Assembly: GCA_020055655.1 (NCBI GenBank)
Contig: JAIPUR010000024.1
Span: 1 to 40,193, forward strand
Direction of reading: 5' to 3'
Length of the DNA: 40,193 bases
From: Methanosarcinaceae archaeon
GTDB taxonomy: Archaea; Halobacteriota; Methanosarcinia; Methanosarcinales; Methanosarcinaceae
Under the pieces are notes generated by a model that was not told where the DNA came from, made no database searches, and saw nothing but the letters and a program-made list of their open reading frames with translations. A program made the translations under genes and the position numbers. Below, piece after piece: positions 6,869 through 38,658 of this stretch. Numbering within the stretch: the first letter of the stretch is position 1; the number at the start of each line of letters is the position of its first letter.

Positions 6869-8494
6869 TCAATCCAATATCTGAATGTCCTCATAAGTGA
6901 TCGCATTCACAGGGCAAATCCGAACACACCTTTTACATGCAGTTCCAAGACACTTTTGTGTATCATACCTTGCGAACCGTTTGTCATCTCTTTCAACAAT
7001 GCTAATTGCATTTTCAGGGCATTCCTTTTCACACTTATGGCACAAAGTGCATCCTACTGCAAGCTCTTCAATAGTAATACCAACATTCTCTACAATTTCA
7101 ACGCCTGAAGTACTTATATTTTTTATATTCTCTGAAGACCGCTTTTCAACAGATGCAGTGCCAGGTTCCAGTGGAAGAGCGGGGAGACCATATATGGACA
7201 GGAAATGGTTGTACTGGTCCTTTGTCATACCTTCGGTCCAGTAGGAAAGCTCACAGGAATAGAAGTCCTTGAATGTGCCGCTTGTAGCCATCATCAAGTG
7301 ATCTGCCGTAATGTGACCTGCAAGTTTTATGACCTCATCAAGTTTGGATTCATCCAGTAATATTTCCCTTGCAAGTGCCAGGGAGGTGTTGCCGAATTGA
7401 ACTACCTTTTTAGAGAAATCCGGGCATGAGCCAATATGCATTGCTTTTTCAGCATCAACATATCCACCTGAAGCACCGGTCATGTACATGTTCTCAAGAT
7501 CATCATAATGCAGACCGGATTCTATTATGAGAGTCAATTGAGCTGCTCTTATGGCACCTATAGCCTTTCCGGCTTCTTTTATATCATCCTCTGTGATGAA
7601 CAGGTCATCACCAAGCAATATTTTTCCGTATTTTAGTTTAGGTGGATTTTCAATTATTCCTGTTTTCATGGCAACTGAAAGAACTGAAATAACACCTGTA
7701 CCTGTTATTCCCACAGGTTTTATATCTGAATCCTTTATTATTTCCCCGGAAACCGGGTCTATAATATAACTTTTCTGAGGTTCCATATCAGCATCAAGGA
7801 CCATAAGTTGCCAGTACTTTCCTTCACTGATTATATCAGATATCACACCTGGACTTGCAAGCATTCCACATCCAATGCCCTGTCCTTCAATAGCAGGACC
7901 TGCGGCTGCACTGGCCGTGATTATACGCTCACCTATCTTGATAGCCATTTCAGCATTGGTACCATAATCGGTCACAATAGTTGGAACAGTCTGGTCCAGG
8001 AAATCGGTTTCAAGCATCATTGCAAGAGCATCAGCACCGATCTCATGTCTGATAGCAGGAGGAACAATGATACTGCAATCATTATTAAATGCAGGACTTC
8101 CTTTAAAAATATCAGGTGCAGGGAATACCCTTGACTCACGCTTGACATCCTCTATTCCGAGTCTCTCCTGCATATTCTTACCAGCATATGCAAGGTCCCT
8201 TATCTCTGAGTTCTGGAACAATGAAAGCTGTATCGGATTTCCGCATACAGATATTTTCTCTATTAATGAAGCATCTACGTGGAAGCTATCGATCAATTTA
8301 CATATTGCATCGACGATTATTCGATGTGCTACATCTTCACTTACAGACAATGCAAAATCCAGATGATCGGTGATATTTCCACCGGGAAGAGGATGTTTTG
8401 CAGTCATTGAAGCCTTAAATACACTTTTAGATTCTAAATCTATTAATTGAGCCCTAAAGCCGCTCGTACCCAGATCCAGTGCTATCCCATACAT
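6869..8494 (-). CDS. ramA: RamA-like ATP-dependent reductive activase of corrinoid proteins
   Basis: A 541-residue protein. Residues 1 to about 440 form the ASKHA-fold ATPase domain of the RamA/DUF4445 type (YGIALDLGTSGFRAQLIDLE at the start; VTDYGTNAEMAI and TGASGGYV further on). The last 60 residues hold two [4Fe-4S] sites: C482, C485, C488, C492 and C515, C520, C523, C527. RamA reduces inactive Co(II) corrinoid to Co(I) with ATP, so that methyltransferase corrinoid proteins can work. Length agrees with RamA of Methanosarcina. It is the last gene of the methyltransferase island, 93 nt after the chaperonin gene, with AGGGGAA before its ATG. A paralogue dedicated to the adjacent fusion protein is likely, so the exact symbol is provisional. 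Confidence 0.85.
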   Translation of the reverse strand: MYGIALDLGTSGFRAQLIDLESKSVFKASMTAKHPLPGGNITDHLDFALSVSEDVAHRIIVDAICKLIDSFHVDASLIEKISVCGNPIQLSLFQNSEIRDLAYAGKNMQERLGIEDVKRESRVFPAPDIFKGSPAFNNDCSIIVPPAIRHEIGADALAMMLETDFLDQTVPTIVTDYGTNAEMAIKIGERIITASAAAGPAIEGQGIGCGMLASPGVISDIISEGKYWQLMVLDADMEPQKSYIIDPVSGEIIKDSDIKPVGITGTGVISVLSVAMKTGIIENPPKLKYGKILLGDDLFITEDDIKEAGKAIGAIRAAQLTLIIESGLHYDDLENMYMTGASGGYVDAEKAMHIGSCPDFSKKVVQFGNTSLALAREILLDESKLDEVIKLAGHITADHLMMATSGTFKDFYSCELSYWTEGMTKDQYNHFLSIYGLPALPLEPGTASVEKRSSENIKNISTSGVEIVENVGITIEELAVGCTLCHKCEKECPENAISIVERDDKRFARYDTQKCLGTACKRCVRICPVNAITYEDIQILD

Positions 8495-8587
8495 TTGATT
8501 TCCCCTATTATTTTCTGTTTAGCCGTTTTTTATTACAATGTTATTTTTGATCCAGGGCCAAAATACCAACCTGACGTAGTGGATCTA

Positions 8588-10198
8588 TTATCTGCTTCTA
8601 AGGATCTTGTCAATCCTCAAAACGCTGTTTGTAGCCTCTGTTGCTGCTATTAGTGAAAGTTTCTTGATGCTTGCGGAATCATACACAGGTGGCTTATTTG
8701 GTATTACCTCCCTTAACATATCGATTCTGGCATCTATTCCTTTATTATAGTACCCGGACATGCTTGACATTGAATCTATGACATTCATACCCATATTACG
8801 TGCAAGCGTCCTTGGAATCTCTTCCAGTGCATCTGCATATGCAAAGACCGCAAGTTGCTCTTTCCCAGCAACCGTAGAAGCATATTTTCTAAGCATTTGA
8901 GCGATCTCAAATTCTATCCAGCCACCGCCTTTCACGACTACCGGATTCTTCACCATAAAAGCAGCATTGTTAAGAGCATCATCAACTGCTTCTTCAACTT
9001 TATCCAGAGCATACCTGAATGGTTCCCATATCACAATGGATGACATCGGCTGATCCCTGACAGATATGGTGAGGAAATATTCATCACACCTCTTGTCCAC
9101 CTCGACCTCATCAGCATCACCAAGATCACTGGGCAGGATCTCGTCTTTGATGGAAAGGATTGAAGCACCAGTTGCCTTTGCGATCTTTTGAAGGTCCTTC
9201 ATCTGGAGCTTTCTGTAGAGCAGAATATCATTCTTTGCAAGAGTACCTTCAATGGAAGGATCGACCTTGCCTTCGCAGAGAACCAGATCTGCACCCGAAT
9301 CTACAATTTTATTTGCAAGTTCTTTCAGGTGCCTTATTTGGGAATTCTCAAATATCATTGAACCTTCGACGCCATCAAGATGAATATTATGCTGGGAATT
9401 AATGATCTTGCTCTCAAATTTTGTATTATAATTCAGGATAAGGACCTTTGCTCCCCTAAAATGAGTTGTTACACTTGTGTTATCAGGTGCTTCATCAAGT
9501 ACAATACCTGAAACACAGTTCATATCAGGTCCACCTACCTTCTTTATGACCTTTACATAATCATTGAGATCAACATAACTGTCCTCGCCCAGTTCTTTGA
9601 GATTCTCTACGGTCTTGAGCACAGCATCTGTGATCATCTTTGCCTGCTCAGCTTCCACACCCTTGCTTAAGCTGGCATTTTCGATCACTGAATGCATATC
9701 TTCATGTGAACGGCCATTAATCGTTGTAAATTCAAGAATGTCATAAGCTTTGTTAAGAGCCAGTTGATAGCCTCTTATAATAGTTGAAGGATGTATTCCT
9801 TCCCTTGCAAGTTTGGAAGCATTTTCAATAAGAGATGATGCAAAAAGAACAGCTCCCTTTGTACCATCACCACAGGTTTTATCCATTGACATTGCCAGAC
9901 TTTTCATGGAAGTGACTACAGGATGAAGTACATCTACCTCTTTGATGATGGTCTTCCCGTCGTTTGTCATGATAATATCGCCTGATGGATTTGCTATCAG
10001 TTTGTTCAGACCACGTGGACCAAAAGAAGATGATATCAGGTCTTTTACATCAGCTGAAACGGATTCCATGTGATGGATCAGATCATCGCCCTTAACATCC
10101 TCATCTATCCCGATCCTTGCCCTTACACTTGCCTTAAGAGCTTCCATGCTCTCAAGTTCATTACCAGGAGCTGGAGCTTGATCTACCATGGAGCTCAT
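8588..10198 (-). CDS. Divergent group II chaperonin (thermosome-like) subunit
   Basis: A 536-residue Cpn60/TCP-1 protein. The equatorial nucleotide loops are present but altered: TNDGKTIIKE is near canonical, GDGTT has become GDGTK, and the C-terminal equatorial loop reads VVKGGGWIEFEIA where VVPGGGAxExEIA is usual. The C-terminus ends in DKILRSR, without the Gly/Met tail of ordinary thermosomes. This fits a specialised paralogue and not the housekeeping thermosome. Its ATG overlaps the stop of the upstream gene (ATGA), so it is coupled to the hydantoinase-like gene and belongs to the methyltransferase operon. A role in folding or assembling the corrinoid methyltransferase is inference from position. 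Confidence 0.88.
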   Translation of the reverse strand: MSSMVDQAPAPGNELESMEALKASVRARIGIDEDVKGDDLIHHMESVSADVKDLISSSFGPRGLNKLIANPSGDIIMTNDGKTIIKEVDVLHPVVTSMKSLAMSMDKTCGDGTKGAVLFASSLIENASKLAREGIHPSTIIRGYQLALNKAYDILEFTTINGRSHEDMHSVIENASLSKGVEAEQAKMITDAVLKTVENLKELGEDSYVDLNDYVKVIKKVGGPDMNCVSGIVLDEAPDNTSVTTHFRGAKVLILNYNTKFESKIINSQHNIHLDGVEGSMIFENSQIRHLKELANKIVDSGADLVLCEGKVDPSIEGTLAKNDILLYRKLQMKDLQKIAKATGASILSIKDEILPSDLGDADEVEVDKRCDEYFLTISVRDQPMSSIVIWEPFRYALDKVEEAVDDALNNAAFMVKNPVVVKGGGWIEFEIAQMLRKYASTVAGKEQLAVFAYADALEEIPRTLARNMGMNVIDSMSSMSGYYNKGIDARIDMLREVIPNKPPVYDSASIKKLSLIAATEATNSVLRIDKILRSR

Positions 10199-12129
10199 GC
10201 CCCTCTCCTTGGACTGCCCACTGCAAGCCCTTCAATTTTTGTTTCAAGGGGAAGGGTTCCCATAGAACCAACATCATTACGTTTTAGTTCGAATTTTACT
10301 TTATCCATGTTCAGACCGTAACCTTTCATATACTCTGAAACCGATTCTTCCACAAATTTGAGAGCATATTCAATAGCAGACTTATAATCTTCAAAAAGTA
10401 TTCTTCCTTTCTCCGAGAACAATGCATATTGAGTACTGCCAAAGGAAGAAGGACGGATCAGTATCTCTGTCCTGTAAATAACATCACCAACTAGAGCCCC
10501 AACTGCATTTCCAACCTGGTGGAAATCAGGTACAATTATATCACCATCTATCGTTTTCTCAAGATCGGATTTATAGGCAGCTACCGGAGCACCCACAAGC
10601 ACGACAGGTGACTTGAGCCTGAATGTCATATTATCAGAGCAAGCCATTATCTTTTCAATGTCCTTTGTCTTAACATCATCTGCAAAATATGATATTAGGT
10701 CAAGGGCCAGATTGTCCACTAGCCCTTTCTTAACATTGGCACAGAATTGTTCTTTGCTGATACCCAGGTAACCGGAAAGGATCTTTGCACCTATGTCAGA
10801 TGCCTCTCCATTCCACCTGTCATATTCCCCAAGAACATGAAGTGCATCAGTTGGTGTGAATCCTATCTGCTGAATGCATCTTTTCTTCACAAGTGCCTGC
10901 AATATATGTGTGAACATCAAAGGATGGGTTTCTGTCTTCTTTGCAATATCCATAATAGATGTAGGCTCCTCACCCACAGCATCCAGTATCTCCATTTCCT
11001 GTCCATCGAGATCTGCCATGGCTCTGCAATGAGATCTTGAACCTTTGCATATGAAAAATGTCGTTGATTGCAGGGATTCTGTCATTATACGTGTGGAATA
11101 CTTATCCGAGCTTTCCAGTTCATCTATTACAGAAGGATATTCACTTGCAGCAAGACAAAGGGGAATTACTCTGTTCGGGCCAATATACATCTTGTTCTGT
11201 ACCCATACATGACTGTCTCCACCCATTGCCGATGTTCTCATTTTAATGGCTTTCACCATTGTTTTCCAGCCACCGACTATGGCACCCTGTTCATCTATCT
11301 GTGGGACAGCATCACGGATCATTGCAATATCTGTACTTGTACCGCCAACATCCATTGCAATACATTCTTCAAGTGAAGTTAGGTGACCGGCGCCAACAAG
11401 ACTGGCAGCTGGTCCTGAAAATATTGATTCAACGGGTTTTTCCACCGCTTCTTCTATCTTAACAAGTGAACCATCACACTTCATCATCATAAGTGTGGAA
11501 TCTATTCCAATATCTTTCATTACCGAAAGAATAGACTTAATAAAATCATCCACTACAGGTATAAGCTGAGCATTAAGCAAGGCAGTGATAGCCCTTTCTG
11601 AAGCTCCAAGGCTCATGGACAACTCATGTCCACATACTATTGGTAGATCGGTTAGTTTGCGCACATACTCTTTTACGCGATTTTCATGATCAGGATTTCT
11701 CACACCGAAGTATGAAGAAATTGCAAATGAAGCTACTTTCTTTTTGTTCTCAAGAATAAACTCCCTGAGCTCTTCCAGACCTTCAAGGGGAGCTATTTCA
11801 TTTCCATCGGAATCATGCCCTCCGGCTATGGACAGTACATGATCACTTGGAACTTTATTATTAATTGAATAACCAATGAGAATAAGACCGGCAGGATAAC
11901 CCTTACCCTCAAGGGTAGTATTGGTTGCCAGTGTTGTGGAAACAGAAGTAAAATTGATATCTTTTAAGTATTTTGGATCAAGTCCGTTGAGAGTATTTCG
12001 AATGCCTGTGACCAGATCGGGATATGTTGTCAATGATTTGTAAGAATTTACCAAAGATCCATCAGAGAGATCCATTAGTACTGCATCTGTATATGTGCCG
12101 CCTGTATCAATACCAAGTCCAAGTTTCAT
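10195..12129 (-). CDS. Hydantoinase/oxoprolinase (HyuA)-family protein
   Basis: A 644-residue ASKHA ATPase-like protein. The N-terminal phosphate-1 loop is GLGIDTGGTYTDAVLMDL, followed by STTLATNTTLEGKG. The phosphate-2 loop is AMDVGGTSTDIAMI, and SGPAASLVGA lies between, as in HyuA. A C-terminal extension (about 360-640) contains a winged-helix-like stretch and LVGAPVAAY. Classical HyuA hydrolyses hydantoins or 5-oxoproline with HyuB, but no hyuB is nearby, so that reaction is doubtful here. Its position between the corrinoid/methyltransferase fusion and the chaperonin suggests an ATP-using helper of corrinoid methyl transfer; this is inference. AGGTGAT precedes the ATG. Confidence 0.8.
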   Translation of the reverse strand: MKLGLGIDTGGTYTDAVLMDLSDGSLVNSYKSLTTYPDLVTGIRNTLNGLDPKYLKDINFTSVSTTLATNTTLEGKGYPAGLILIGYSINNKVPSDHVLSIAGGHDSDGNEIAPLEGLEELREFILENKKKVASFAISSYFGVRNPDHENRVKEYVRKLTDLPIVCGHELSMSLGASERAITALLNAQLIPVVDDFIKSILSVMKDIGIDSTLMMMKCDGSLVKIEEAVEKPVESIFSGPAASLVGAGHLTSLEECIAMDVGGTSTDIAMIRDAVPQIDEQGAIVGGWKTMVKAIKMRTSAMGGDSHVWVQNKMYIGPNRVIPLCLAASEYPSVIDELESSDKYSTRIMTESLQSTTFFICKGSRSHCRAMADLDGQEMEILDAVGEEPTSIMDIAKKTETHPLMFTHILQALVKKRCIQQIGFTPTDALHVLGEYDRWNGEASDIGAKILSGYLGISKEQFCANVKKGLVDNLALDLISYFADDVKTKDIEKIMACSDNMTFRLKSPVVLVGAPVAAYKSDLEKTIDGDIIVPDFHQVGNAVGALVGDVIYRTEILIRPSSFGSTQYALFSEKGRILFEDYKSAIEYALKFVEESVSEYMKGYGLNMDKVKFELKRNDVGSMGTLPLETKIEGLAVGSPRRGA

Positions 12130-12249
12130 TTATATCACCTGTTTTAGAAAATTTATGAAGAAGAAGAAATGCTGGAGGCATTCTTCTTTAATCGATTTTG
12201 CAAATTAATAGACCAAATCAAATTTTGAGATCACCTCACAATAAAAGGA

Positions 12250-12276
12250 AAAGAAAAAATGGGTTATTACACCCAC
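12250..12276 (-). terminator. Hairpin and T-rich tract after the fused methyltransferase gene
   Basis: On the minus strand a short stem (TGGGT / ACCCA, 5 bp with possible GU extension, 6-nt loop) is followed by TTTTTTCTTTTCCTTTT, just after the stop at 12290. It probably ends or attenuates transcription, so the downstream helper genes would be made at a lower level than the methyltransferase. Confidence 0.5.
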
Positions 12277-12289
12277 TTTATCCAATGAT

Positions 12290-14182
12290 CTATTTCTGGA
12301 GCTCTGGACCGAGTTCCTTAACAACATCGACCATTGCCTTAACTGTGCTAAGTGGTCCTCCTGGTGGGATCTCACAGCCAGATGACATTATATACTTGGA
12401 CTGCAGACCATTCTCCTTGAGTACTGGATGAACGTCTCTAAGCAGCTGTTCTGTGTCGTTCTTGATCTTCTGCACACCTTCTGCAGAACCATCCATGAAA
12501 TCAACAGGATTAATCTCTCCCATAAGACAACATTCCTGACCATATTTTGGAATAAGGTCCATGTGTCCCTGTGAGCCCTTTCCTCTGAGCTTTGGATAGT
12601 ATGCGTAGCTGTAAAGCTGGGTGCCGAACTTTGTGATCTGGGTATCAAAGTGTACTGCATCTGCACAGTTGTGGATGATGTATGGCTGGTCATATTTCTT
12701 GAATATTGGAAGGTGCTGGTCGTAGACGAATTTACCGTCAAACTTCCAGTAGTCTTCTTCGTCCATGATTATATTGTTAGACCAGAGGTTGTCAACACAA
12801 AGTGCATTACATGCGCTTTCTTCGAAGAATACTTCAGATACCTGGCAGATGTAGTCAGTACATTTCTGCACAGCTTCAAGTACAACTTCAGGATTTGTCT
12901 TCATATCCATAAGTACACGGTCTGCTCCCATCAACTGGGTAAGGGTGAGCAGTGGACCTTCGTGGAAACCGACAAATGGTGCATTGAGTTCGCCATTGAG
13001 CTTTTCTGTTGCAAGCTTGGATGCCTGAATAAGCTCGTATGCACGTGTTCCTTCCTTGACTTCTGGAACTTCTATCTTGTCATAATCATCAAGGTGACCT
13101 TCGGATGATGGAGTGTCATCTTCTGGGTATTTGATCTCACATCCAAAGTCAGCCGGTGTAATTGAAAGGTCCATAAGACCTACGAACATATCACTGTCAG
13201 TGTACTTGGTTCCAAGGAAAGCACTGTCTCTAAATGCCTCTGGTTCAAGACAATATTGCTTGTATGAAACATTAGCAAACTTCCTGTATGAACCACATGC
13301 AAGAGGATATACTGGAAGCCGGTCTACCTTTTTGTCGCCCATTGCTGCAAGTGTTCTGTCCATGTGGGACATTTCTTCTTTATCTTTGACAGCTACAGAA
13401 TCGAATTCTGCCATGATCTCTTTTGCAGTCTCGAGTCCGACATCTGTCTTGCCCTTTACTTTCTTCTTAGAAAGTATGTCTCTATACTTGACCTTTGCAA
13501 GTCCGATCTTTTCATCGCTCCATCTGTCTTCAGATGGGCCAAGTGCCTTTACAGCTTCCTTTGCCCAGTCAGTTGCAAGCATTGCATCGTTGTGTGTTGA
13601 ATCTGCACCGACTTCTGCTGCAAACTCTTCGGATATTGGAGCACCACCGACCATAACAGCCATAGCGTCTCTGATACCTTCTTCCTGAAGCATTTCAATA
13701 ACTTTTTCCATGTTTACCATGGTTGTTGTCATTAAAGCACTCATTGAAACAAGATCAGCTTTGTTTTCTTTTGCAGCTTCAGCGAATTTCTCGACAGGTA
13801 CATCAGCACCGAGATCGATCATGTTGAAACCTGCTGCTGAAAGCATTGTCTTTACGAGGTTCTTTCCAATATCGTGAACGTCACCCTCAATACTTCCGAT
13901 TACACCGACTGCTGGTACATGTCCTTCCTGTGTGACGATGTGTGGAGTTAAGATATCCATACCTTTATACATTGCTTTTGATGCAACGAGCAGGTGTGGG
14001 ACAAAAGCCTCTCCTCTCTCATACTTGTCACTGACAATGACCATTCCTTTTGCAAGACCGTCGAGGATAGCTGTGTAAGCATCATCACCATCTGCAACTA
14101 CTTTGTTCGCGAGTTCTTCTACTGCAGCGACGTTTCCGCCAACTACAGCATCCGCTAATTGATTTAATGTAGCAGTATCCAT
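12290..14182 (-). CDS. Fused corrinoid protein/methylcobamide:CoM methyltransferase (MtsD/F/H type)
   Basis: A 630-residue two-domain protein. Residues 1-215 are a corrinoid-binding protein of the MtaC/MtbC/MtmC class: a four-helix cap, then the cobalamin motif DVHDIG (D101, H103, G106; H103 is the lower ligand) and a GGAPI loop near 179-183. Residues about 270-630 are a UroD-fold methylcobamide:CoM methyltransferase of the MtaA/MtbA class with zinc ligands H504, C506 and C603. Such fusions are known as MtsD, MtsF and MtsH in Methanosarcina acetivorans, where they act on methanethiol and dimethyl sulfide and transfer the methyl group to CoM. GGAGGA stands before the ATG, and a long A/T-rich promoter region lies upstream. 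Substrate cannot be fixed from sequence; methyl sulfides are the best guess, supported by the adjacent Msr-type regulator. Confidence 0.85.
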   Translation of the reverse strand: MDTATLNQLADAVVGGNVAAVEELANKVVADGDDAYTAILDGLAKGMVIVSDKYERGEAFVPHLLVASKAMYKGMDILTPHIVTQEGHVPAVGVIGSIEGDVHDIGKNLVKTMLSAAGFNMIDLGADVPVEKFAEAAKENKADLVSMSALMTTTMVNMEKVIEMLQEEGIRDAMAVMVGGAPISEEFAAEVGADSTHNDAMLATDWAKEAVKALGPSEDRWSDEKIGLAKVKYRDILSKKKVKGKTDVGLETAKEIMAEFDSVAVKDKEEMSHMDRTLAAMGDKKVDRLPVYPLACGSYRKFANVSYKQYCLEPEAFRDSAFLGTKYTDSDMFVGLMDLSITPADFGCEIKYPEDDTPSSEGHLDDYDKIEVPEVKEGTRAYELIQASKLATEKLNGELNAPFVGFHEGPLLTLTQLMGADRVLMDMKTNPEVVLEAVQKCTDYICQVSEVFFEESACNALCVDNLWSNNIIMDEEDYWKFDGKFVYDQHLPIFKKYDQPYIIHNCADAVHFDTQITKFGTQLYSYAYYPKLRGKGSQGHMDLIPKYGQECCLMGEINPVDFMDGSAEGVQKIKNDTEQLLRDVHPVLKENGLQSKYIMSSGCEIPPGGPLSTVKAMVDVVKELGPELQK

Positions 14183-31349: not shown

Positions 31350-31507
31350 GGGTAGAATTGGATAATATGCTGGGGGTATCCTATTGATTTATTATCACTT
31401 CTTTCTTTTTGAGTTTACAGCTTCTCTTTTTATTTTTGATCATTAAGCTTTCATTTTATTTATTTTGCTGTTTTGTATTCTTTTTAGGTGATTATTGGAT
31501 GGAGACC

Positions 31508-32775
31508 ATCAAATTAGATTTTTGATTTAAAAACCTATCTCTTTTTTCAACAAGACCTACCCAAAAAAATAGCGTCAGCTCCCTCCAAAGCTATAAATAG
31601 TATAAATTTGGCCAGTCTCATGGAGGATATTTATACTGTGTATAAGGGAGTCCTCTTTGAGGACTCCATTCGAAACGATATTGGTAAAGAGAATGTGTCA
31701 GTTTGCCGATTGTTACATTTTCTTAATATTGACGACATCGCACAGCATGTTGAAAATAACCATTATTCCAATAAAGACTGGCATTTCAGATATCGTATTT
31801 CTTCTATGATAAAACTCACTGTTGTCAAATGCTTCAGAGATCTTTCTTTCAACAAAACAATTTCATCTATTTCAGATGAAGAAGCTCTGCTTCTTCATTT
31901 TGTTGATGGCAATGGAGATATTTCATTACCTACAGGAGCAACACTTCATCATTTTGTAAAATACAGATTAGGAAAGAAAGGATTTCAATATATTATGGGA
32001 ATGATAGCTGAAAGGATCATCAAACTAACTAAATCCAGAGATCTAAAAACCGATTCTACGCCTCTTGAGGCTTCCAGATATGATAAACATAGTGATTATA
32101 ATCCTCACTATGGATGCAAAATGGACAAAGCTCACATCACATTGATAGGAGTTTTTCCACTATATATGACATATACAAATGGATTGGCCAATGATTCTCC
32201 TGAACTGGATAAACATATTGATTTCTTAAAGAATTTTAATATCAACATTGATTCTTATGCTTTGGATTCTGGATATGATTCATTTGAAAACCATGCTGAT
32301 ATATGGTACCACTTGAAAGTGAAACCAACTATCCCGCCAAGATGTAATGCAGTGACCAACATGGAGGGAACAATTGAAAGAATAAATCACTGGGTCAACA
32401 AGATGTGGAAAAAAAGAGGTTCAATACATATGCCAATAGCAAAAAAACTGGAATTGCTATATGAAAACGGAAGGAGGAAACAAGTGGGCATGTATCTGAG
32501 AAACAAAATGATGATGGATGAAAAATTTGAAGAGAAGATTAAGACGAGACAACCTATTGAAAGATCAAATAGACACATCAAAGGCAGTGTAATCTTTGAT
32601 GTGAGAAAAATACAGAAGAATAGCAGGGAAATCTATTCAATAATAAGATTTGTGGCATACCAGTTTATGACACTGGCAAATTTACAAAACAAAATAGAGA
32701 AGATAAACTTAGCCAGGTATTTTTAAGAAAAATGCTCATCAAATTAGAATGGGGTGAATTATGACCTAATTTGAT
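31508..32775 (+). mobile_element. Insertion sequence, about 1.27 kb, with ATCAAATTAG ends
   Basis: The transposase gene is bounded by ATCAAATTAG (31508-31517) and its reverse complement CTAATTTGAT (32766-32775). A further direct copy of ATCAAATTAG at 32738-32747 makes the right end a hairpin, and the left end can pair as ATCAAA/TTTGAT (31508-31526). No clear target duplication is seen, so the exact ends are uncertain. It lies between cobT and rsgA, in an A/T-rich stretch. Confidence 0.7.
31620..32726 (+). CDS. DDE transposase of the IS4/IS5 superfamily
   Basis: About 368 residues, full length and uninterrupted. The first two acidic residues are in KTDSTPLEA (D145 from this start) and ALDSGYDS (D216); the glutamate is in QPIERSNRHIKG near the C-terminus. 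The protein is Lys/Ile/Asn-rich, more so than its neighbours, as is common for transposases. The ATG at 31620 is chosen over the in-frame TTG at 31608, which lies only about 5 nt after the likely TATA box CTATAAATAG. The subfamily cannot be settled by eye. Confidence 0.85.
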   Translation: MEDIYTVYKGVLFEDSIRNDIGKENVSVCRLLHFLNIDDIAQHVENNHYSNKDWHFRYRISSMIKLTVVKCFRDLSFNKTISSISDEEALLLHFVDGNGDISLPTGATLHHFVKYRLGKKGFQYIMGMIAERIIKLTKSRDLKTDSTPLEASRYDKHSDYNPHYGCKMDKAHITLIGVFPLYMTYTNGLANDSPELDKHIDFLKNFNINIDSYALDSGYDSFENHADIWYHLKVKPTIPPRCNAVTNMEGTIERINHWVNKMWKKRGSIHMPIAKKLELLYENGRRKQVGMYLRNKMMMDEKFEEKIKTRQPIERSNRHIKGSVIFDVRKIQKNSREIYSIIRFVAYQFMTLANLQNKIEKINLARYF

Positions 32776-32787
32776 AATCTCACATTC

Positions 32788-33897
32788 CTAAAACTCCCCT
32801 TTAGACTCCCTTAACTTCCTTGCCGCCTGTGCTATCCCTTTACACTTTTTCTTTTCCACTCCCTTTAAGCCGATCTCAGCCTTAGCCGCCTGAAAAGCCA
32901 GCTCAGCATTCAGCTTATGATAACTGTCAAACCTTTCCTGACTTATGATTCCCTCATCCACTGCTTTTATGACGGCACATTGTGGCTCATTCTGATGCGT
33001 GCAGTCCTTGAAACGGCAATTGTGAGCAAGTCTTGCAATATCGGAGAAGGTCATATCGATGCCATCGGATGAATCTCCAAGCTGGATCTCACGGATGCCG
33101 GGGTTGTCGATTAATATTGTGCCGTTGGGGAGGAGGAAAAGCTGTCTGACAGTGGTGGTATGTTTTCCTTTATCGTCATCTTCACGCACGTTTAGCGTCT
33201 TCTGGACATCATGACCCAAAAGTGCATTAATGAGGGTGGATTTGCCAACTCCTGAAGAACCTATCAGTGCTATAGTTTCATCTGGATTCATGAAAGTGTC
33301 CAGTTCTTCCAGATTTGTATTTGAGAGGGCACTGAGAGTTATCACCGGAACATCGTCAGCCATATCCATTATTTCCTGTATCGTTTCTGACGGGTCGTCT
33401 TCCAGTTTCTCAGCAAGATCTATCTTGTTGATCACAATAACAGGTCTTGCACCGGAAGAATGAACGATGGTAAGATATCTTTCAAGTCTTCGCAAGTTGA
33501 GATCATGACCCACTGCCGTGACGATGAAGATCCTATCAATATTTGCAGCTATCAATTGTTCCTCACTGGAATCGCCTGCAGAACCACGGGACAGACAGGT
33601 ATTTCGTGGGAGAATGTCCACAATGGTGTATGAATGAATGTCACTCTGGTCAAGTACCACAACAAAGTCTCCGACAACCGGCTGTTTGCCAAGCTTGCGC
33701 ATGGCTCCCGATATCGCTGCCTGTATCTCACCCTTAGCAGTCAGGATATTGCAGACCGTTTTGTGCTGGGTTGCGATCCTGCCGGGAATATAAGGCCCTT
33801 TATAGACCGAAAATGCAGATTCAAGTGAATTGTTCCAGCCGGGAATAGCACCGGCTTTTGAAACATCACTTCCTTTGTTGCTGTATTCACCATTCAT
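32788..33897 (-). CDS. rsgA: RsgA-like circularly permuted GTPase
   Basis: A 369-residue protein. N-terminal OB-fold (about 40-100, [11 protein letters not shown]), then a permuted GTPase: G4 NKID, G5 LSALS, G1 [10 protein letters not shown]3 DNPG, and the C-terminal zinc knuckle [16 protein letters not shown]. RsgA helps small ribosomal subunit maturation; it is a bacterial family found in Methanosarcina relatives, so an old transfer is likely. An upstream extension of the frame to 34044 is not counted as protein, because a minus-strand TATA box (33969-33980) lies inside it; the ATG at 33897 gives a 50-nt leader. The stop lies 12 nt past the insertion sequence. Fragments of a second copy lie at 36704-36940 and 38608-38658. 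Confidence 0.9.
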
Positions 33898-34202
33898 ACC
33901 ATAAATCCAGAATGTTATTATGAATAAACTTTTTGATAGGAGTGATGGATAATATTGAAATGAAAAGTCTATAAATAATCTAAATTCTGTACAAAATTTA
34001 AGAACATTGTATGATGGGTAAACTATATAATACAATAACTTCAAGTTATGCCTGTACAGCCATATAGTGTAGGTGTACTTTATTTTATTTTATAGGCTAC
34101 AGTCAACAAAAACGCGACTTAAGTATTTGCAATTTAAGGTCCAATATGCTGTTTTATACGAATTTTGGATAGCAAATTAGAAATACTTTTTAAAGCCGAA
34201 AT
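33898..34202. promoter_or_regulatory. Divergent promoter region between rsgA and ablA
   Basis: Minus side: GATTATTTATAG (33969-33980) as TATA box of rsgA. Plus side: TTTTATACG (34152-34160) as candidate TATA box of ablA, with a start point about 20 nt before its ATG. The region between is A/T-rich and probably carries osmotic control of ablAB, since those genes are salt-induced in Methanosarcina; no operator is obvious. No gene seen. Confidence 0.4.
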
Positions 34203-35528
34203 ATGAGCAGTGGTATTTTGATAGAAAAATACAGTAAGCAACAAAAAGAAATAGCAACAATGATCGATTCTGATGACTTTCTGAGCAAATGGAAAGATTG
34301 GAATTGGCAGTTAAAACATTCAATTCGTGATATTGAAACTTTCGAGAAACTACTTGAAGTTAAATTTGAGCCATCTGAGAAAGAGAAGCTCAAGGAAACA
34401 CTGGAAAAATTCCCATTATCTATCACACCTTATTACCTATCGTTGATAGATTCTGATGATTTCAGAAATGACCCTGTTTTTCTTCAGGCGTTTCCTTCAC
34501 CAGAAGAATTAACTGTATCAGATGAGGAATTTGAAGACCCTCTTTCAGAAGATACAGATAGTCCTGTTGAAGGTATAACTCATAGATATCCTGACAGGGT
34601 CCTTTTCCACATAAGCAACGTCTGTTCGATGTACTGCCGCCATTGCACACGTAAAAGAAAAGTTGGGGATATCGATTGCATACCCGGAAAAGATAAGCTC
34701 CTTGAAGGTATCGAATACATTAGGAACACACCAGAAATAAGGGATGTGTTGCTTTCAGGTGGCGATCCCTTGATGCTACCTAATGATTTCCTTGATTGGA
34801 TCCTTACCGAAATAAATAGCATTCCTCATGTAGAAGTGATCCGTATTGGAAGCAGGATGCCTGTTGTACTTCCATATCGTATTACAGACGAACTTGTGGA
34901 GGTCTTGAAAAAGCATCATCCGGTCTGGTTGAACACACATTTCAACCATCCACGAGAAGTTACATATTCATCCCGCCAGGCACTCCAAAAACTTGCAGAT
35001 GCGGGTATACCTCTTGGAAACCAGACAGTACTGCTTGCAGGCGTGAATGATTGCCAGAGAATTATAAAGAAGCTGGTCCATAAAATGGTTGAGAATCGTG
35101 TCCATCCGTATTACCTTTATCAATGTGACCTTTCTGAAGGACTTTCGCATTTCAGGACCCCGATAGGCAAGGGGATGGAGATCATGGAGAACCTGATCGG
35201 CCACACAAGCGGTTTTGCAGTTCCTACCTACGTAATCGATGCTCCTCATGGAGGAGGAAAGATACCAATTATGCCAAATTACATTATTTCATGGTCAACA
35301 AACCGTGTAATTCTCCGTAATTATGAAGGTGTCATTACCACCTACAAAGAACCTGACTCATATAAACAGGCATATTGTGATCGTAAATGTGATGATTGCC
35401 ATCTTCAGCTTAAGCTTCAGGATGCTACAGAATACAAAGGAGTTGGTATCGCCAAACTGATTGCGGACCATGATGATACTACAAGCCTTGTTCCTGAAGA
35501 TAATGCGAGGATGGAGAGAAGGGACTAA
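34203..35528 (+). CDS. ablA: Lysine 2,3-aminomutase
   Basis: A 441-residue radical SAM, PLP-dependent enzyme turning L-lysine into L-beta-lysine. Cluster motif C141-x3-C145-x2-C148 ([15 protein letters not shown]), [23 protein letters not shown], the glycine-rich substrate stretch and a PLP lysine in [15 protein letters not shown], and a C-terminal cysteine group (CDRKCDDC) for zinc and dimer contact. Length is normal. It is directly coupled to ablB (TAATG). The pair makes N-epsilon-acetyl-beta-lysine, a compatible solute of halotolerant methanogens. No ribosome site is visible before the ATG, so the start is tentative; ATG 34260 is an alternative. Confidence 0.93.
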
Positions 35529-36364
35529 TGGACACCATTGAGAAAATAGGCAATTCTATTATCCAGCATGGAAAGTATAACGACCGGATCTATCTTATGA
35601 AACTGGATCCGGCAGATATGCCTTTAATTCTGGATGAAATGGATGCTCTTGCAGGAAAGGAAGGTTATTCCAAGATCTTCACAAAGGTCCCGGAATCTTT
35701 CAGGAAACTCCTTAGTGAACGAAACTATCATTGTGAGGCATCCATACCAGGATATTATGAGAGAGAGGAAGATGCTGTCATCATGAGCAAATTCCTTGAT
35801 GAAAAAAGAAGCATCAACTGCCTGAATGAACAGCACGAAGATATCATAACGACAGCTCTGTCAAAAGAAAAGGAGCTGGACCTCACGCTTCCATCCGGGT
35901 ATTCCATAAGGGAATGCGGGAAACAGGATGTTGAACAAATGGCTGAAGTATACCAGAGTACGTTCGCCACCTATCCTTTCCCAATACATGACCCGAAATA
36001 TCTGTTAAAGACAATGGAAGACAATGTGGTTTATTTCGGTGTTTTTAAGGAAAAAAAAGCAGTTGCACTTTCCTCTTCTGAAATAGATATCGAGCACTTT
36101 GCTGTTGAAATGACCGACTTTGCCACATTGCCCGAATTTCGTGGTAAAGGGCTGTCTTCACATCTGCTCATGAAAATGGGGGAAGAGATGAAAGCAAAGG
36201 GTATCAGGAACGCATTTACCATTGCAAGAGCCGGCTCTTATGGGATGAACATCGTGTTTGCAAAATGCGGATATGAATATTGTGGAAGGCTTGTGAATAA
36301 TACCAACATTTCCGGTGAGATTGAAAGCATGAATATCTGGTATCAAAAAATTCAAACCAATTAA
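35528..36364 (+). CDS. ablB: Beta-lysine N6-acetyltransferase
   Basis: A 278-residue protein with a C-terminal GNAT domain (about 130-275): YSIRECGKQDVEQMAEVYQSTF, VEMTDFATLPEFRGKGLSSHLL (acetyl-CoA loop) and AFTIARAGSYGMNIVFAKCGYEY. The N-terminal part (1-125) matches the extra domain of AblB. It acetylates the epsilon-amino group of beta-lysine to give N-epsilon-acetyl-beta-lysine, used as osmolyte. Its ATG overlaps the ablA stop by one base. Confidence 0.93.
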   Translation: MDTIEKIGNSIIQHGKYNDRIYLMKLDPADMPLILDEMDALAGKEGYSKIFTKVPESFRKLLSERNYHCEASIPGYYEREEDAVIMSKFLDEKRSINCLNEQHEDIITTALSKEKELDLTLPSGYSIRECGKQDVEQMAEVYQSTFATYPFPIHDPKYLLKTMEDNVVYFGVFKEKKAVALSSSEIDIEHFAVEMTDFATLPEFRGKGLSSHLLMKMGEEMKAKGIRNAFTIARAGSYGMNIVFAKCGYEYCGRLVNNTNISGEIESMNIWYQKIQTN

Positions 36365-36690: not shown

Positions 36691-36703
36691 ATCGATGTCA
36701 CTT

Positions 36704-36940
36704 CTGAAGAACCGATCAGTGCTATAGTTTCACCTGTATTCATTAAAAAGTCTAGCTCTTCCAGATTTGTATTTGAGAGGGTACTGAGAGTTATCACCGG
36801 AACATCATCAGCCATATCCTCTATTTCCTGTATCGTTTCTGACAGATCATCTTCCAGGTTCTCAGCAAGATCTATCTTGTTAATGAGAATAACAGGTCTT
36901 GCACCAGAAGAATAAACGATGGTGAGATATCGCTCAAGTC
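36704..36940 (-). pseudogene. Internal fragment of a second rsgA gene
   Basis: About 79 codons closely match rsgA at about 33252-33488 in the same orientation. They still read through: [56 protein letters not shown], ending in ETIALIGSS where the P-loop GVGKST should follow. There the match stops abruptly. It keeps G4 (NKID) but has no start, no G1 and no zinc knuckle, so it cannot be active. The piece sits between the decayed sequence on the left and the hgcA promoter on the right. Confidence 0.85.
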
Positions 36941-37045
36941 ATTCTCCCTATTTTATTTACCTATCAAATAGATATATATGCAGCTTCTTGTATACTAGTA
37001 TTGTTTCAAATTTATTTGAATCAGTTCATCACAAGGAGAAATAAC

Positions 37046-38134
37046 ATGAGTAAAAACAGAGATACAGGTTCATGCTGCTCATCCGATAGCGAGATGAATA
37101 CAGCTAATTTCATCCCAATGGCAGACCTGGACAAAAAGAGATCTCCTCCTGAGATCAGTGAGACAACAAGTGTGATCACCTCCAGTGAGAGATTTGGTCA
37201 TTTCCTTGCCCGTTGTGGTGTCAAACGGGAAGAACACATTGTAAGTCCGGGAATCTATAAACTGGGAAACCCTACCTCCGATTCTCCTGTCCTTGTCTCG
37301 GCTAACTATACACTCAGTTTCGATGCACTCCGCAGTTCACTCGCAGGCATCGACTGCTATATCCTTGTCATAGATACAAAAGGTATCAACGTCTGGTGTG
37401 CTGCCGGCAAAGGAACATTCGGTACTGATGAGATAGTCTACCGCATCAGATGGTCAGGACTTGACAAGATCGTCAAGCATCGAAATATCATTTTACCACA
37501 ACTCGGTGCACCTGGAGTCTCTGCATATGATGTTAAACGCATGTCTGGTTTTAAAGTCGAATACGGACCTGTTCGTGCCGAAGACCTGCAGCAATATCTC
37601 AAAACTCATACTGCAACGGCTGAAATGCGCAGGGTCCGGTTCACATTCAAAGACAGGTTGGTGTTGACTCCTGTGGAACTTGTTCATGTAATAAAACCAA
37701 CATTAATTGCTGCAATCGTCCTCTACTTGCTAGCAGGTCCTTTTGGAGCATTCATTGTAGTTGTCACAGCATTTGCAGGAACCATACTATTCCCTGCTCT
37801 ACTTCCTTTCATTCCGACACATGACTTTAGCACAAAAGGACTGATACTGGGAGGAATTGTATCTCTTCCATTCGCAGTCTTTCTTGCAACAACTTCTACA
37901 ATTAGCTCTGCAATGTCACCCCTGGAAAATGTACTTACAGCATTGGCCACTTTCCTTATTCCGACCGCAGTAGTTGCATATATTGCCCTTAATTTTACAG
38001 GATGTACAACCTACACTTCAAGAGCCGGTGTCAAAAAAGAGATATTTAGATATGTACCATTCATGGCATTTATGGGAGGAATGGGGCTGCTATTTCTCAT
38101 CATTCTGGGTATCAGTTTACTGGAGGTCATTTGA
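37046..38134 (+). CDS. hgcA: HgcA, corrinoid protein of mercury methylation
   Basis: A 362-residue protein. The N-terminal cytoplasmic domain (about 45-190) is the CdhD-like corrinoid domain. It holds the family hallmark NVWCAAGK at 115-122, in which C118 is the cap-helix cysteine that ligates cobalt and donates the methyl group to Hg(II). Residues about 215-360 form five membrane spans, as in HgcA. A vicinal cysteine pair (C10-C11) lies near the N-terminus. With HgcB it converts Hg(II) to methylmercury. The ATG at 37046 is chosen because AAGGAG lies 7 nt before it; an in-frame ATG at 37001 has no ribosome site. It overlaps hgcB by one base. The physiological role is unknown; the CdhD likeness suggests a link to one-carbon metabolism. 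Confidence 0.95.
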   Translation: MSKNRDTGSCCSSDSEMNTANFIPMADLDKKRSPPEISETTSVITSSERFGHFLARCGVKREEHIVSPGIYKLGNPTSDSPVLVSANYTLSFDALRSSLAGIDCYILVIDTKGINVWCAAGKGTFGTDEIVYRIRWSGLDKIVKHRNIILPQLGAPGVSAYDVKRMSGFKVEYGPVRAEDLQQYLKTHTATAEMRRVRFTFKDRLVLTPVELVHVIKPTLIAAIVLYLLAGPFGAFIVVVTAFAGTILFPALLPFIPTHDFSTKGLILGGIVSLPFAVFLATTSTISSAMSPLENVLTALATFLIPTAVVAYIALNFTGCTTYTSRAGVKKEIFRYVPFMAFMGGMGLLFLIILGISLLEVI

Positions 38135-38430
38135 TGTTCGATTCATATATTGAGAACACACTTCAATATTATCCTGAAAAATGTATCAACTGCCTCATGT
38201 GTATACAGGTCTGTCCTCATGTAGTGTTTACCGAAGGGAAAGAACACGTAGAGCTCAAAAAACCTGCTTCATGCATGGAATGTGGAGCTTGTGCAGGCAA
38301 TTGTCCCGTACAGGCAATTGAAGTAGAGAGTGGTGTGGGATGTGCGTGGGCAATGATTCGTGCAGCGCTCAGAGGTGAGGATATGGATAGTGATGCGAGT
38401 TGTTGTGGTGAGGATGGTGGGTGCTGCTGA
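38134..38430 (+). CDS. hgcB: HgcB, dicluster ferredoxin of mercury methylation
   Basis: A 98-residue ferredoxin with two [4Fe-4S] motifs: C17, C20, C23, C27 and C47, C50, C53, C57. Then comes the HgcB-specific C70 in GVGCAWAMI and a cysteine-rich tail with pairs C90-C91 and C97-C98. HgcB is thought to hand electrons to the HgcA corrinoid so that Co(I) is regenerated, and its tail cysteines to bind and pass on Hg(II). GGAGGT precedes the ATG by 6 nt; a TTG at 38131 in the same frame is not the start. TGATG overlap with hgcA makes the pair one translational unit. Confidence 0.95.
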   Translation: MFDSYIENTLQYYPEKCINCLMCIQVCPHVVFTEGKEHVELKKPASCMECGACAGNCPVQAIEVESGVGCAWAMIRAALRGEDMDSDASCCGEDGGCC

Positions 38431-38607
38431 TGAAAATATACAAGGATGCAGCTTTTCAATAAATTATATGGCACAGAAATCATTCAAGATGAATTTATTT
38501 TGATTTTGATTTTGGAATTAAACTTGAATTGTCTCCTACACCTCCAATCTGGATTTATCTAAAAAAGAAATTGATGCCCTCAAACACCAATTTCTCCAAT
38601 AACTTCC

Positions 38608-38658
38608 CTAAAACTCCCGAAGCTTCCTTGCCGCCTGTGATATTCCCTTAAACTTTTT
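38608..38658 (-). pseudogene. C-terminal fragment of an rsgA-like gene
   Basis: Seventeen codons on the minus strand, [16 protein letters not shown] plus stop, match the last codons of rsgA at 32788 ([17 protein letters not shown]...EF), with near-identical DNA around CACAGGCGGCAAGGAAG. The frame upstream of it (DFETIVTYI) does not match RsgA. With the fragment at 36704-36940 it brackets hgcAB. Confidence 0.7.

Follow-up and report, generated by a model that had tools for sequence, protein, structure and literature searches.

A two-gene locus in a methanogen contig, which a preliminary description had taken for the mercury methylation pair hgcA-hgcB, raises the question of whether it is a genuine and complete operon, which chemistry may be expected of it, and how it came to lie where it does. 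The window, that is the whole stretch of 40,193 nucleotides that was analysed, is one entire contig of a 2.48-Mb genome whose nearest named relatives are Methanolobus species, and its source is a Methanolobus-type methanogen. The reading argued here is that the locus represents an hgcAB operon of the Methanolobus type, complete and to all appearance functional, that it would perform HgcAB chemistry as judged by homology, and that it is part of a cassette which moved between genera; the three taken jointly are considered very probable.

The first gene, hgcA, occupies positions 37046-38134 of the forward strand, from an ATG start to a TGA stop at 38132-38134, and encodes 362 amino acids. Directly downstream and on the same strand, hgcB (38134-38430, ATG at 38134) encodes a dicluster 4Fe-4S ferredoxin of 98 amino acids, and the two genes overlap by exactly one base. 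The span 37046-38430, the one-base overlap and the motif NVWCAAGK with its cysteine C118 are all as the preliminary description had given them. This cap-helix motif corresponds to residues 115-122 of HgcA, and the segment D110-K122, C118 included, is invariant across 70 aligned homologues. The cluster cysteines of HgcB fall at positions 17, 20, 23, 27 and 47, 50, 53, 57, in two 4Fe-4S motifs of the form CxxCxxCxxxCP, and are followed by C70 within GVGCAWAMI and by CC pairs at 90,91 and 97,98, positions which agree with the earlier account of a dicluster ferredoxin ending in cysteine pairs. In the alignments of 70 HgcA and 24 HgcB sequences, the residues of the catalytic motifs are invariant or nearly so. 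Furthermore, the window copy compared with its nearest relative gives a dN of 0.09 against a dS of 0.32, and the gene is thus under purifying selection.

The AlphaFold2 model of HgcA (mean pLDDT 87, pTM 0.81) is composed of a corrinoid domain of Rossmann-like fold and, at the C-terminus, five helices (208-230, 232-255, 261-286, 292-320 and 326-357), with which the hydrophobic stretches of the protein agree. The five membrane spans counted earlier are borne out by this fold. The model is matched best by CFeSP gamma (CdhE/AcsC) and, over the whole protein, by the integrative model of HgcAB deposited as 9a0b. The corrinoid domain superposes on the CFeSP gamma structures 2ycl and 2h9a with Z of 17-18 and 28-29% identity (Z 18.1 and rmsd 1.8 over 127 residues for 2ycl_A); CFeSP gamma shares this corrinoid-binding fold but has neither the cap-helix cysteine nor the membrane domain, and serves another role.

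Family membership was assessed with the NCBIfam equivalog models NF040863 (HgcA) and NF040864 (HgcB), both with curated cut-offs, a profile search having been named beforehand as a test of the proposed identity. HgcA scores 433.6 bits (cut-off 275), with residues 38-354 of 362 aligned, and HgcB 117.1 bits (cut-off 99), and the two genes are accordingly hgcA and hgcB. As to the worry that generic annotation could hide both of them, these models would name each, whereas Pfam labels the pair CdhD (47 bits) and Fer4 only. From that Pfam domain name, and from a distant match to CdhE/CFeSP gamma (NF003195, PRK04165) of 80.9 bits against a cut-off of 306, in which the corrinoid domain alone is aligned, the protein could be read as a corrinoid protein of the CdhD/CdhE type. 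Such a reading is contradicted by the score with the HgcA model, by the presence of C118 and by the membrane helices, which CFeSP lacks. Moreover, the CdhE/gamma-type paralogue that this genome encodes on contig C11 reaches only 57 bits when scored against the HgcA profile, and stands in a separate clade. In a 99-row tree, obtained by a quick search and including CdhE/gamma-type paralogues but no CdhD sequence, the HgcA clade is set apart from these paralogues with an SH-aLRT of 100, and the grouping outside HgcA that the preliminary description had named as a refutation did not occur. Family scores and this tree, with CdhE/gamma-type paralogues as its comparison, together rule out the CdhD/CdhE identity, which keeps a negligible probability. 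Equally remote is membership of the HgcAB-like fusion family (NF043039), which has the same two domains in fused form and would not methylate mercury. It draws on a match of 217.1 bits and on the fused forms found in two relatives (G050 and G064), but the match is under the cut-off of 285, the window holds two separate genes which pass the HgcA- and HgcB-specific models, and the tree places the window HgcA away from the fusions; this identity was rejected as well. The fused hgcAB of Methanococcoides methylutens did not methylate mercury in culture, which means that homology alone is no guarantee of activity; the window copy is of the unfused type.

Within the genus, HgcA exceeds its cut-off in 16 of 27 genomes, and in the whole family in 25 of 112; HgcB does so in 24 genomes of the family, co-occurring with HgcA in the same genomes, and G013 is the sole HgcA-positive genome of the family in which HgcB stays below the cut-off. 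In G013 the locus (L117:3561-4934) consists of decaying hgcAB pseudogenes with stops in both genes, and ACR3 and low-molecular-weight phosphatase/arsC-like genes lie 2-5 kb downstream of them. Methanolobus tindarius forms methylmercury in culture (PMC5893877). With hgcAB tested in that species and present in much of the genus, the window pair adds to a system already known in Methanolobus and, its genes being intact, lengthens the list of predicted mercury methylators by one. It resembles the pairs of M. tindarius and other Methanolobus in genus-level kinship, gene order, catalytic residues and unfused state, and differs from them in its HgcA sequence, which is closer to a copy from another genus.

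The likely chemistry can be drawn from the HgcAB of Pseudodesulfovibrio mercurii / Desulfovibrio desulfuricans ND132 (PMC7305189, PMC11588087), which has in common with the window pair the corrinoid domain with a cap-helix cysteine, the five-helix membrane domain, the dicluster ferredoxin, a conserved cysteine after the clusters (C73 in ND132) and a C-terminal CC. The ND132 system was shown to use SAM as methyl donor and a mechanism involving a Co-thiolate and Fe-S clusters (PMC11588087), and mutants of C93, C73 and C94/C95 have been described, with the HgcB cysteines as carriers in the transfer to thiol-bound Hg(II) (PMC7305189). By homology with it, we infer HgcAB chemistry for the window organism and predict mercury methylation as the activity of the pair. 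HgcA, held in the membrane, would bind a corrinoid whose lower cobalt ligand is the thiolate of C118, and the two 4Fe-4S clusters of HgcB would reduce the cobalt to Co(I); the cobalt would then be methylated and its methyl group passed to thiol-bound Hg(II), with C70 and the C-terminal CC pairs of HgcB handling mercury and product. It is possible that the methyl donor in the methanogen differs from SAM and is methyl-tetrahydrosarcinapterin. The window form differs from that of ND132 in two CC pairs ending HgcB and in an N-terminal tail of HgcA (residues 1-35, 37046-37150) with a CC pair at residues 10-11. With start codons picked by script and bacterial records taken as labelled, a CC or CxC is present in this tail in 55 of 65 archaeal sequences versus 2 of 12 bacterial ones, and the archaeal tail may handle mercury as the HgcB tail does.

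The purpose for which the pair is kept is a separate matter, and an alternative that falls somewhat short of even chances is that a genuine HgcAB was selected for another role, such as metal homeostasis or the transfer of methyl groups to a different thiophilic metal or metalloid, with mercury methylation as a side reaction. The constraint on hgcA and the patchy gain and loss of the genes, seen in the genus-wide count and in the decaying copy of G013, are in keeping with it, as are the arsenic genes (ACR3, arsC-like) near hgcAB in a minority of relatives and a MazE/AbrB-like protein, rich in cysteine over a stretch near its N-terminus, which is encoded directly upstream of hgcA at most sampled archaeal loci. 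However, no neighbour within the window indicates such a substrate, and the alternative bears on the purpose of the pair and not on its identity as HgcAB. The neighbourhood of hgcAB in the window is not common to the Methanolobus relatives checked. Clustering of ORFs of at least 80 aa around 82 loci, with the small upstream gene handled separately, yielded no neighbour shared with the window beyond hgcA and hgcB, and arsenic genes recurred in a minority of those loci only.

The origin of this genuine hgcAB pair can be followed at the level of DNA. The segment 36961-38471 of the forward strand, comprising promoter and hgcAB, is 87.4% identical to DNA of G047, a genome from another genus (g7) of the same family; the similarity ends at these borders and is at background level within about 50 bp beyond either. 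The nearest HgcA (83%) and HgcB (91%) are likewise those of G047, against 59-71% for the HgcA of sampled congeners, whereas ProS (76% to G047, 82-84% to congeners) and ValRS (77% and 79-83%) show the opposite order. In the quick tree, the HgcA proteins of the window and G047 pair with an SH-aLRT of 99, nested inside Methanolobus sequences. G047 is the only one of 11 g7 genomes with HgcA over the cut-off, and another g7 member carries a fused hgcAB. As homology is confined to 36961-38471, hgcAB and about 85 bp of upstream DNA appear to have moved horizontally between the window lineage and the other genus, and the window copy has the look of a recent exchange in which the two genes travelled alone with a promoter of their own. 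A survey of 2020 found neither insertion sequences nor transposases in the vicinity of hgcA, and called for single transfer events and their mechanisms to be pinpointed (PMC7438021); the window offers a clean, base-resolved case of hgcAB transfer between genera.

Transposition is suggested as the mechanism. An IS5-like element (31502-32781) with 16-bp terminal inverted repeats (31502-31517 and 32766-32781) and a transposase gene at 31608-32726 lies about 4 kb upstream of the cassette, and copies of about 88% identity exist in other Methanolobus; a transposase relic akin to this gene is present in G047, about 33 bp past the homology border. A search for hgcA on mobile replicons returned zero matches in 72,556 plasmids, in 50,697 phages or in viral contigs. 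The stop codon of an intact rsgA (32788-34044) is a few bases from the IS5-like element, and remains of a second copy of this GTPase gene flank the cassette on the reverse strand. A decayed fragment (36700-36940), 90% identical in DNA to 33248-33488, abuts the 5' side, and a fragment of the rsgA 3' end (38594-38658; 80% over 65 bp, tblastn E 2e-5) is found on the 3' side. That the cassette simply split a single rsgA copy was rejected because the two fragments are not collinear, and the history is therefore more complex. Within the genus rsgA is sporadic, and in genome G008, too, an intact copy is accompanied by a decayed one.

The cassette opens with a candidate promoter element, CTATCAAATAGATATATATGCA (36961-36982, forward strand), in which an imperfect 5-1-5 palindrome precedes a TATA-like stretch. 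The pattern CTATC-N-RATAR-N-TATA-N-RTGCA recurs upstream of hgcA in most Methanolobus copies and in G047, with flanks that are otherwise unrelated. Exact matches number six in the 27 genomes of the genus, all of them just upstream of hgcA, which argues against a wider regulon; matches with two mismatches exist elsewhere, and one adjoins a transposase relic. A candidate leader dyad, TTCAAA-N4-TTTGAA (37014-37032), is also kept in most Methanolobus hgcA copies.

A second possible contributor to control is the MazE/AbrB-like gene (PF04014), directly upstream of hgcA at no fewer than 43 of the 62 sampled archaeal loci with room for it. Its product is small with N-terminal cysteines (for example L044:7682-7972), and may be what PMC7438021 refers to as a "putative regulator". 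In the family the gene occurs in nine genomes only, each time adjoining hgcA, and it is absent from the window's genome. The hgcA-linked element and this gene are handles on the control of hgcAB and hence on the selection for it. A broader reading, put forward as speculative and rather unlikely, is that in methylotrophic methanogens hgcAB is a self-contained mobile cassette of 1.5 kb, with a private promoter/operator (the CTATCNGATAG-TATA element), which is exchanged between genera near insertion-sequence debris and has shed an ancestral cysteine-rich MazE/AbrB-like gene. If this were true, the signals sensed by the element and by the MazE/AbrB-like protein would reveal the native substrate.

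As for the remainder of the window, the placement of the pair beside corrinoid genes had been overstated, as the nearest, cobT, ends 5.7 kb upstream, and 23-30 kb separate hgcAB from RamA and from a corrinoid/methyltransferase fusion. The latter two belong to a cluster at 6869-14182, which comprises RamA, a divergent thermosome-like gene, a hydantoinase-A-like gene and the 630-aa fusion, and perhaps serves methylated sulfides. Directly upstream of hgcAB is a kamA-ablB pair (34203-36364), for the osmolyte N-epsilon-acetyl-beta-lysine.
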